NCBI RefSeq assembly: GCF_016591715.1
Contig: NZ_AP024109.1
Coordinates: 1 to 64,000, forward strand
Direction: 5' to 3'
Length of the DNA: 64,000 bases
DNA from: Mesorhizobium sp. J8
Lineage (GTDB): Bacteria > Pseudomonadota > Alphaproteobacteria > Rhizobiales > Rhizobiaceae
Part shown: positions 59,150 to 63,046 of the stretch, one piece after another
Layout: each line of letters starts with the position of its first letter
Numbering within the stretch: the first letter of the stretch is position 1
The notes under the pieces: model-generated
What the model was told of the DNA's origin: nothing
Seen by the model: only the letters and a program-made list of their open reading frames with translations
Database searches by the model: none
Translations under genes and position numbers: made by a program

Positions 59150-60133
59150 CTACGCATTCCCGATCAGCACGCCGGCCCCGAACACCAGCGCGCCGCCCAG
59201 CACCACCTGGAAGGCGGCGCGCCAGAATGGCGTCTGCATGTAGCGGTTCTGGATGAAGGCGATTGCCCAGAGCTCGAAGAACACCACGACCGCCGCGACG
59301 ACGGTTGCCGTCCAGAAATAGGGGATGAGATAGGGCAGCGCGTGGCCGAGCCCGCCCAAAGTGGTCATGATGCCTACGGTGAGGCCGCGCTTCAACGGCG
59401 AGCCACGACCGGAGAGCTTGCCGTCGTCGGAGGCGACTTCGGTGAAGCCCATCGAAATGCCCGCGCCGATCGAGGCGGCGAGGCCGACGAGGAAAGTTTG
59501 GAAGGTCGCATGGGTGGCGAAGGCGGCGGCGAAGATCGGCGCCAGTGTCGACACCGACCCGTCCATCAATCCGGCCAGCCCGGGCTGCACATAGGTGAGG
59601 ATGAACTGGCGCTGCTCGGCCGTGGCCTCCTCAACCTTGACCGTGCCCGGCACATGCTCCTGCTCCAGTTCATGCGCCGAGCTCTCATGGCCCTGCTCGG
59701 CCACGGCGAGGTCGTCAAGCAGCTTTCGCGTCGAGGCGTCGGTGGTGCGCTTGGCCGCCTCGACATAGAAGCGATAGGCCTGCCGCTCCATTTCCTCGGC
59801 CTGCCGGCGCACATGCTCGATGCCGAGCGGCTTCACCAGCCAGTCGGGCTTGCGCTCGAAATAGCCCTTGACGTGTTCGCGCCGGATCAGCGGGATGCGT
59901 TCGCCGAAGCGCTTGCGGTAAAGCTCGATCAGCGAATCGCGGTGGCCGTCTTCCTCCTCGGCCATCGCCTCGAACACTTTCGCGGATTGCGGAAAGTCTT
60001 GCGCCAGGCCATCGGCATAGGCGCGGTAGATGCGCCCGTCATCCTCCTCGGAAGAGATCGCCAGCGCCAGGATCTCCTGCTCCGACAGCGAATCGAAGGA
60101 ACGGCGGCCGAAGCCGAAAACACGGGAAAGCAT
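59150..60133 (-). CDS. mbfA: Membrane-bound ferritin MbfA (ferritin-like domain fused to VIT1-type transporter)
   Basis: This 327-aa protein joins an N-terminal ferritin-like (Er/rubrerythrin) domain (about residues 12-160, with Glu/His di-iron ligands such as EEEDGH and VAEQGHE) to a C-terminal VIT1/CCC1-type membrane domain with about five helices. MbfA exports iron under iron excess and oxidative stress in rhizobia and Agrobacterium. The perfect Irr-type palindrome 16 bases upstream fits regulation by Irr. Confidence 0.94.
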   Translation of the reverse strand: MLSRVFGFGRRSFDSLSEQEILALAISSEEDDGRIYRAYADGLAQDFPQSAKVFEAMAEEEDGHRDSLIELYRKRFGERIPLIRREHVKGYFERKPDWLVKPLGIEHVRRQAEEMERQAYRFYVEAAKRTTDASTRKLLDDLAVAEQGHESSAHELEQEHVPGTVKVEEATAEQRQFILTYVQPGLAGLMDGSVSTLAPIFAAAFATHATFQTFLVGLAASIGAGISMGFTEVASDDGKLSGRGSPLKRGLTVGIMTTLGGLGHALPYLIPYFWTATVVAAVVVFFELWAIAFIQNRYMQTPFWRAAFQVVLGGALVFGAGVLIGNA

Positions 60134-61140: not shown

Positions 61141-62100
61141 CTAGCTCTCGTCCGAGGCCTCGGCCATGGTCTTGCGCCGCCGCTCCCATGTGCCAGTCGC
61201 CTGCGGCTTGACGAAGAGCCGGGAGATTTGCGGCATTTCCTTCTTGAGCCTTGCCTCCAGGCGCTCGACGCAGGCTTCGATCTCGGGCGCGGTGAGATGG
61301 TCCTCGAACTCGATGCTCAAGCCGGCGACGATTTCCTCCGGACCGATATGGACGCTCAGGATTCCGTTCGCCCGCTGCACCGCAGGATCCTGCTGGACGA
61401 TTTCAAGCACCTTCTTCTGCACTTCGGACGACGCGGGTTCACCCAGCAGCAAGCCCTTGCTCTCGCGCGCCAGGAAGATGGCCGTGGCGCCAAGGATGAT
61501 GGCAATGCCGATCGAGCCGACGCCGTCGAGCTCCGGGATCTCCAGGAGTTCGGCGGACAGGATGCCGGCGAAGGCGACGATGAGGCCGAGCAGCGCGGCG
61601 CTGTCCTCGAACAGCACCGTGTAGACGCTGGGGTCCTTGCTCGACTGCACGGCCTGCAGCCAGCCCTGCCTGCCTTTCTGCTGCCGAAACTCCTTCAGCG
61701 CGACCAGCCATGAGCTGCCCTCGAAAAGGAAGGAGAGGCCGAGCACGGTATAATTGACCTTGGCGTTGACGACCGGTTCGGGCGCCATGATGTGGATGAC
61801 GCCCTCGTAGAAGGACACGCCGGCGCCGAGCGCGAACACCAGAAGCGCGACGATGAAGCTCCAGAAATAGAGCTCGCGCCCGTGGCCGAGCGGATGCGTG
61901 CGGTCGGGCGGCCGCGCCGCGCGACGCATGCCGTAGAGGAGCAGCGCGCCGTTGCCCGTGTCGACCAGCGAATGCACGCCTTCCGACAGCATGGCGGACG
62001 AGCCGGTGAAGACTGCCGCCGCGAATTTGGTGAGCGCGATCGCCAGATTGCCGGCAAGCGCGGCGTAGATCACGCGTCTCGATCCGCTATGTCCTGCCAT
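61141..62100 (-). CDS. Cation diffusion facilitator family transporter
   Basis: This 319-aa efflux protein exports divalent metals (Zn, Fe, Mn or Co) by proton exchange. Membrane segments 1-6 include ALTKFAAAVFTGSSAMLSEGVHSLVDTGN with the His/Asp ligand pair in HSLVDT, and HPLGHGRELYFW. A C-terminal cytoplasmic domain follows from about residue 230. I chose ATG 62100 after GGAG; the frame upstream is not conserved. The metal is not predictable. Confidence 0.9.
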   Translation of the reverse strand: MAGHSGSRRVIYAALAGNLAIALTKFAAAVFTGSSAMLSEGVHSLVDTGNGALLLYGMRRAARPPDRTHPLGHGRELYFWSFIVALLVFALGAGVSFYEGVIHIMAPEPVVNAKVNYTVLGLSFLFEGSSWLVALKEFRQQKGRQGWLQAVQSSKDPSVYTVLFEDSAALLGLIVAFAGILSAELLEIPELDGVGSIGIAIILGATAIFLARESKGLLLGEPASSEVQKKVLEIVQQDPAVQRANGILSVHIGPEEIVAGLSIEFEDHLTAPEIEACVERLEARLKKEMPQISRLFVKPQATGTWERRRKTMAEASDES

Positions 62101-62318: not shown

Positions 62319-62444
62319 ATGGCAAAAGGTGCGATGAAGGCGGGCAAGGAACCCCGCAAGCCGAAGAAGGATGCCAAGAAGCCCGCCGCGGCCCCGGCTC
62401 CGAAGGCGCCGCCGGTCAAGGCGATGCGCATCAAGGAGAAGTAA
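62319..62444 (+). CDS. Small basic Lys/Ala/Pro-rich protein (41 aa)
   Basis: This 41-aa protein, MAKGAMKAGKEPRKPKKDAK onward, is very basic and disordered in composition. ATG 62319 follows GGAGGAG by six bases, and a strong terminator follows, so it is a convincing transcription unit. The function is unknown; nucleic-acid or ribosome binding would fit the charge. The promoter is in the gap before it. Confidence 0.72.
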   Translation: MAKGAMKAGKEPRKPKKDAKKPAAAPAPKAPPVKAMRIKEK

Positions 62445-62483: not shown

Positions 62484-62518
62484 ACCGGCAGCATCACCGT
62501 GCTGCCGGTGTTTTGTTG
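62484..62518 (+). terminator. Rho-independent terminator after the 41-aa gene
   Basis: A 10-bp perfect stem (ACCGGCAGCA with TGCTGCCGGT) encloses a 6-base loop and is followed by GTTTTGTT. It lies 39 bases after the small basic gene and isolates the riboswitch-sugE unit downstream. Confidence 0.88.
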
Positions 62519-62550
62519 ATCGAAAAACAAGGGCACCCTATATCCAGACG

Positions 62551-62597
62551 GCGAGGACGACCTCGCTTCCCCGAAGAACCGGCCGGGACGACCCGCC
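62551..62597 (+). promoter_or_regulatory. Guanidine-II (mini-ykkC) riboswitch
   Basis: Two hairpins each end in an ACGA tetraloop: GCGAGG-ACGA-CCTCGC (62551-62566) and CGGG-ACGA-CCCG (62584-62595, extended by GG/CC), with a 14-base linker. The pair of ACGR loops is the diagnostic feature of the guanidine-II class, which turns on SMR-type guanidinium exporters when guanidine binds. The gene behind it is exactly such an exporter. It sits 44 bases before the start codon. Confidence 0.85.
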
Positions 62598-62640
62598 ACA
62601 TCAAGCATCTCAACCGATGCTGGAATGACGGAGTGTTTCG

Positions 62641-62955
62641 ATGTCCTGGATCTTTCTTTTCTTCGCCGGCCTGTTCGAGATCGGCTGGGCGATCGGCCTC
62701 AAATACACCGACGGCTTCTCCAAGCCGCTGCCGACCCTTCTCACCATCGTCTCGATGATCGTCAGCCTCGGCCTGCTCGGCTTGGCGCTGAAGACGCTGC
62801 CCGTCGGCACAACCTATGCGGTGTGGACGGGCATCGGCACCGTCGGCACGGCGCTGCTCGGCATCTGGCTGCTCGGCGAGCCGGCGACAGCCGTGCGGCT
62901 CGCCTGCATCGGTCTGATCGTTTGCGGCATCATCGGCCTCAAACTGGTGGCCTGA
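62641..62955 (+). CDS. sugE: SMR family guanidinium exporter (SugE/Gdx)
   Basis: This 104-aa protein has four membrane helices and the SugE/Gdx pattern: Glu13 in [20 protein letters not shown], the [20 protein letters not shown] helix 2-3 region and GIWLLGEP. Dual-topology or homodimer function is expected. The guanidine-II riboswitch upstream makes guanidinium/proton exchange the likely activity rather than drug efflux. GGAG lies about 8 bases before ATG 62641. Confidence 0.93.
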
Positions 62956-63046
62956 GCATTTTCAGAGCGGTTCATCGTTTCACGGAAAACGGCGAACCGC
63001 TCTGTCCGGACGGAAAACCGCCCACACTCTCCTGGAATTGCTCTAG
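62956..63046. repeat. Dispersed element, family C, copy 4
   Basis: This reverse copy starts GAGCATTTTCAGAGCGGTTC, has a hairpin (AGAGCGGTTC with GAACCGCTCT, 62964-63003) and ends CCTGGAATTGCTCTAG. It starts at the sugE stop and may also serve as its terminator. Confidence 0.7.

Follow-up and report, generated by a model that had tools for sequence, protein, structure and literature searches.

Guanidine-II riboswitches (mini-ykkC, Rfam accession RF01068) constitute an established class, as are their pairing with Gdx guanidinium exporters and their translational mode of control. Passages on the class describe two ACGR-loop hairpins joined by a linker of 7–40 nt (PMC7544219) and a variable distance behind the second hairpin, P2 (PMC5486947). 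A mutually exclusive stem that spans P2 and the ribosome site has already been proposed for G. violaceus in a passage of PMC5486947. The family is also in print for Mesorhizobium, since a table of PMC5596092 lists MH_s35 of M. huakuii 7653R as RF01068 mini-ykkC. The entry presents MH_s35 as a predicted small RNA and gives the locus tags on either side; the word guanidine is absent from the main text. A full-text literature search for a guanidine riboswitch in Mesorhizobium returned nothing on topic by title or abstract.

We analyzed a window of 64 kb at the start of a 6.69-Mb contig of Mesorhizobium sp. J8. The window contains an element of the same family, in the same genus, as MH_s35. This element is an ordinary member of the known class and carries an additional hairpin, which varies freely among its relatives.

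The guanidine-II aptamer and its upstream flank

The aptamer (62551–62596, + strand) matches the RF01068 covariance model with 35.7 bits against a gathering score of 32. This model had been named by the initial annotation as a check on the guanidine-II identity, which it bears out. When all 4227 Rfam families were run against the 64-kb window with cmscan, the two matches above gathering score were a tRNA and Guanidine-II; sub-threshold matches around the aptamer (mir-299 and others) were taken for chance. Hairpin P1 (62551–62566, GCGAGG-ACGA-CCTCGC) has 6 bp and can be extended by a seventh, G-U pair (62550/62567), and P2 (62584–62595, CGGG-ACGA-CCCG) has 4 bp. Both ACGA-loop hairpins that had been claimed are thus present, separated by a linker of 16 nt, inside the class range, rather than the 14 bases originally given. 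Like its class, whose members precede genes for guanidine export or breakdown, the element is GC-rich in both hairpins and lies upstream of the coding region of a gene that sequence family assigns to the guanidinium exporters.

A hairpin pair of this kind is unconvincing by itself. Pairs of ACGR hairpins (at least 4 bp each, 5–40 nt apart) occur once in the window, and of 100 simulated sequences of 64 kb (first-order Markov, both strands), 18 contain one or more under the same rule. The model score over a curated cut-off, the exporter gene downstream and conservation in the genus together rule out a chance origin. The initial annotation was fair in expecting gene-only annotation to miss the element, but Rfam detects it at once, and the family was already listed for M. 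huakuii 7653R in the table of PMC5596092.

Upstream of the aptamer is an intrinsic terminator-like site (62484–62514, +), in which an 11-bp stem (62484–62509) is followed by the T-rich run GTTTTG. This site would close the upstream transcript and corresponds to the isolating terminator noted earlier. The terminator scan by itself proves little, as its five sites in the 2.5-kb region compare with 2.1 (sd 1.5) in shuffled sequence. At the corresponding position, however, 59 of 111 related leaders also have a terminator-like hairpin followed by a T run/GTTGA. Just before the terminator lies a 41-codon Lys/Ala/Pro-rich frame (62319–62441) with no Pfam or NCBIfam match.

The terminator-like site is followed by a promoter-like sequence, GTTGAT-N17-CTATAT (62515–62543, +), which agrees at 10 of 12 positions with the S. 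meliloti consensus CTTGAC-N17-CTATAT quoted in a passage of PMC2573895. Sites of the TTGAY-N-TAYNT type less than 60 nt from P1 occur in 69 of 111 related leaders, against 0.1% of shuffled leaders. These sites end 2–8 nt before P1 in the related leaders, and the window's CTATAT ends 7 nt before it, so that the transcript should begin at the aptamer, near 62550 at the foot of P1. A general sigma-70 scan of the region listed no promoter.

A third hairpin and the predicted switch

The initial annotation placed the two hairpins directly upstream of the exporter gene; they do lie upstream of it, but a third hairpin and the Shine-Dalgarno region intervene. This hairpin, P3 (62601–62624, +), is predicted by folding, with a main stem of 62604–62609/62616–62621 (62604–62621). 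It distinguishes the element from RF01068 as described, in that passages on the class mention no structured insert between P2 and the Shine-Dalgarno sequence and note no such P3-based expression platform.

We compared this region across the genus using 123 other sites and the window's own. An SMR gene is present on the fetched stretch at 118 of these 124 sites and absent there at six. All but one of the 118 leaders (L172, dropped by the stem rule) parse into two hairpins; the loops are ACGA/ACGA in 102 of the 117 and ACGR/ACGR in 116. The gap from the end of P2 to the ATG is 18–28 nt in 25 of the 117 leaders, five of which precede distant SMR genes (48–50% identity), 43–50 nt in 40, the window's class, and 56–102 nt in 52. 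Gaps of 43–102 nt, which 92 of the 117 leaders have, contain a predicted hairpin, with the exception of L166, which looks like a duplicated ribosome site. Gaps are 20 nt in four parsed Aminobacter leaders (a fifth did not parse) and 15–30 nt in 14 leaders from other genera that parsed. A tree built from 120 exporter genes takes nine changes between short and inserted gaps; the true number may be smaller, since good support is limited to 15 of the 117 inner branches and three rows from outside the genus are placed within it.

Covariation in P3 was almost absent among 38 and 52 unique leaders, which vary little or align poorly. In the mid-length group both sides of a pair changed in three cells and the covariation term was no better than in column shuffles. 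The consensus energy of this group was better than in 197 of 200 column shuffles, a signal that the long group does not share.

We searched four genomes (the window's, G036, G078 and G144) for dispersed copies of the insert and found it repeated in G144 only. There, the insert of L190 (G144:C215:39246–39315), between the aptamer and the Shine-Dalgarno sequence, is a dispersed palindromic repeat, with 25 matches across the genome when its own site is counted. The inserts of G036 and G078 have no dispersed copies (best other place 0.07 and 0.4). A mobile-repeat origin was rejected for the window's P3, whose eight other matches in the genome reach only E 0.19 or worse.

The element is probably a guanidine-II riboswitch of the ON type that controls translation of a Gdx guanidinium/proton antiporter and in which P2 opens in the ligand-free state. 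Transcription would start at the foot of P1. Without guanidine, P1 would be folded and P2 open. The P2 5′ strand and loop (62583–62590) are then predicted, in the two longer of three folds, to pair with the start codon and codons 2–3 (62642–62649, +). The P2 3′ strand (62591–62595) is predicted to pair with the Shine-Dalgarno region CGGAGT (62629–62634, +; GGAG at 62630–62633), and P3 would form a cap between the two halves. By analogy with the class, two guanidinium ions would bind as P2 refolds, and its ACGA loop would kiss that of P1. The refolded P2 would release the Shine-Dalgarno sequence, allowing the ribosome to enter and the exporter to be made. Both ligand and ON direction are taken from passages on the class (PMC5486947, PMC9561414, PMC12186494).

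Folding from the predicted transcript start is consistent with the ligand-free arrangement: P1 forms, P2 does not, and 62591–62595 pair with 62629–62634 around P3. Mean P2 pairing in the window is 0.001–0.03 and rises to 0.46–0.69 once the part behind P2 is shuffled. We made the same comparison for 32 unlike leaders at three lengths of coding sequence. P2 was weaker than with shuffled downstream sequence in 6–7 of 8 mid-length leaders (p 0.016–0.2) and in 13–15 of the 16 long ones (p from 0.021 down to 9e-5). The eight short-gap leaders gave no consistent P2 effect, and the 32 leaders showed no matching fall of P1. A weakening of P1 in the short-leader class, seen over 25 leaders with related ones counted as independent, was not reproduced among the eight unlike leaders and was discarded.

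Forcing P1 and P2 gave a mixed picture of the ligand-bound state. In the window, the unpaired fraction of GGAG rose from 0.30–0.33 to 0.38–0.57, and that of GAGT from 0.34 to 0.53–0.58. The same forcing was applied to 117 leaders, folded thermodynamically without kissing loops and with 15 nt before P1 and 33 coding nt. The Shine-Dalgarno sequence became more accessible by over 0.1 in only 11 of them and less accessible by over 0.1 in 42, so that across the genus these folds do not reproduce a simple thermodynamic ON state. Our confidence is lowered by the loss of the window's P1 in longer folds: it is absent from the minimum-energy fold of 62521–62670, and its pairing is 0.08 in one set and 0.37 at 33 coding nt in another. 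Taken as a whole, the leader in the window has unremarkable folding stability (z −0.76).

The strongest competing explanation, which we consider unlikely, is a real riboswitch in which P3 is a mere spacer and the Shine-Dalgarno sequence is hidden by the P1–P2 linker (TTCCCC) or by the 5′ flank in a helix P0. Passages of PMC9094411 propose the linker as anti-Shine-Dalgarno for E. coli, and those of PMC9561414 propose a P0 helix with the aptamer's 5′ flank for P. aeruginosa. The linker is indeed the main predicted Shine-Dalgarno partner in the 25 short-gap leaders (0.32). In the 40 mid-length leaders, however, the main partner is the P2 3′ strand (0.35), against 0.04 each for linker and 5′ flank, and in the window the corresponding values are 0.64, 0.00 and 0.00. 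A transcription start at P1, if correct, also leaves hardly any 5′ flank for P0.

Extending the preferred reading, with P2 itself as the switch, to most Mesorhizobium is more tentative, and we regard it as somewhat less than an even chance. In such leaders a lineage-specific, length-variable P3 may let both P2 strands reach the Shine-Dalgarno sequence and the start codon, and the G144 insert would be a mobile repeat that settled in the leader. The genus offers more than 100 natural leaders with one gene, one aptamer and gaps of 18–102 nt, a ready-made series on the insert tolerance of expression platforms.

Conservation in the genus and the exporter gene

The window site is the sole RF01068 match found in its own genome (150 of 1316 first-look candidates scored), and a search for a guanidine-I riboswitch in the same genome gave no match. 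RF01068 is present at E ≤ 0.001 in at least 120 of 146 genomes of the genus and above the cut-off in at least 113. Among 297 family genomes the corresponding counts are at least 133 and at least 119. These counts are lower bounds, obtained with stricter filters and with 38 (genus) and 19 (family) candidates scored per genome. A protein matching the exporter (E ≤ 0.001) occurs in 144 of the 146 genus genomes, in a few as distant SMR relatives only.

The exporter is also found, at 79% identity or more, in 21 of the 26 genus genomes that have no riboswitch call. Together with a second copy in G073, these provide 22 leaders without an Rfam call, nine of which still parse into two hairpins. The non-parsing leaders mostly have an altered loop or stem, and L254 has no recognizable aptamer. 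In L236, L237, L238, L239 and L243 the exporter is kept and loops or stems of the guanidine-II aptamer are damaged or altered, a natural loss of the switch. Such decay, and a score close to the cut-off, would fit a window element that is a former guanidine-II riboswitch whose switching has since been lost. We consider this improbable, as the window's loops, stems, Shine-Dalgarno sequence, promoter-like site and gene are all intact.

The gene behind the aptamer, gdx/sugE (62641–62955, +), encodes a 104-aa protein of the SMR family. Its product matches Pfam PF00893 and passes the NCBIfam SugE equivalog cut-off (134.7 vs 126 bits). The nearest solved structures have the Gdx-Clo sequence (6wk5/6wk9; PDB 6WK9 is named Gdx-Clo in a passage of PMC9574504). 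The product retains E13, W16, S42, Y59 and W62, as well as GIG in TM3, and we found no notable difference from the Gdx-Clo/SugE exporters, a group whose Gdx members move guanidinium against 2 H+. These residues include the central Glu, the Tyr switch and W16, whose roles in SMR proteins are taken from passages of PMC7695847 and PMC9574504. The sequence thus identifies the gene as most likely a SugE/Gdx-type guanidinium exporter, in agreement with the initial annotation. A Qac-type drug pump with an inducer other than guanidine, as the NCBI model name 'quaternary ammonium compound efflux SMR transporter SugE' might suggest, is very improbable given W16, which is conserved in Gdx and replaced by Gly/Ala in Qac pumps (passages of PMC7695847), and the scores of 103 bits for Gdx-Clo vs 37 bits for EmrE. 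For annotators, the site is a sign that the 'drug pump' behind it most likely exports guanidinium.

The closest named relatives of the exporter are from Mesorhizobium (96–98% identity), which places the host in this genus or close to it. A second SMR-like frame in the genome, at 6662572, scores 80 bits, below the SugE cut-off of 126. Just behind gdx lies a palindromic repeat (62962–63005). With 40 of 140 first-look candidates scored, it has at least 43 matches across the genome, a count that takes in its own site on both strands. Elsewhere in the window, a gene at 59153–60133 (−) combines a rubrerythrin domain with a VIT-type membrane domain. It lies slightly upstream of a gene for CDF cation efflux (61144–62100, −).

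Second ATP synthase subunit a genes and other aptamer partners

From the sites listed for the family beyond the genus we took 88 (28 loci and 60 more) and used tblastn to classify the gene starting within 260 nt behind the aptamer, checking one protein per kind in Pfam. These genes comprise 37 SMR, 18 F0 subunit a, 15 PACE-type (PF05232), 13 DUF1989 and three Ca2+/H+ antiporter-like genes, with two not parsed. The ATP synthase association is more surprising than the window site. A second F0 subunit a gene (atpB) lies behind RF01068 in L046 (1570–2313) and in L034, L045, L265, L273, L283, L288, L325, L345, L346 and others. The sites come from further genera of the family, and also from G030 and G062, which are placed within the genus. 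Each of the 18 genomes selected because of an aptamer-atpB site has at least two PF00119 matches (two of three are partial in G242), and the window's genome has one.

Among the PF00119 matches (38 listed, 30 fetched, 29 parsed), all 15 copies that have an aptamer no more than 1 kb away share the motif SRPxSHSVRLFAVMLAG, and all 14 that have none share SRPxSLSxRLFANMLAG. Relative to the invariant Arg, which we take to be the essential proton-channel Arg (E. coli a-R210), linked copies have His at −3 and Val at +4, where unlinked copies have Leu and Asn. In 5dn6, the closest solved subunit a, the His is likewise present but the Asn is retained, which makes Val for Asn the distinctive change. Both His and Val were found in 117 of the best 120 of 8000 database relatives; the other three did not match the pattern. 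Downstream of four of the 13 linked atpB copies examined, another aptamer follows together with an SMR gene, both inside 900 nt.

Guanidinium is the side-chain group of arginine. We speculate from these sequences that aptamer-linked atpB may encode a guanidine-inducible, guanidine-tolerant replacement subunit. If guanidine-controlled, linked atpB would suggest the ATP synthase proton channel as a target of guanidinium stress, an idea that bears on why so many bacteria guard against guanidine. Literature searches linking guanidine riboswitches to ATP synthase (subunit, antiporter) returned nothing on topic by title or abstract, and 'ATP synthase' is absent from the main texts of PMC12186494, PMC7266159 and PMC7736828.

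Other partners recur in the family. PACE-type efflux genes (PF05232) lie behind RF01068 in L048, L050, L051 (Pfam-checked), L059 and 11 further sites, and Ca2+/H+ antiporter-like genes (PF01699) in L033 (Pfam-checked), L052 and L057. One genome, G333, has four RF01068 sites inside 1.7 kb of a single contig.
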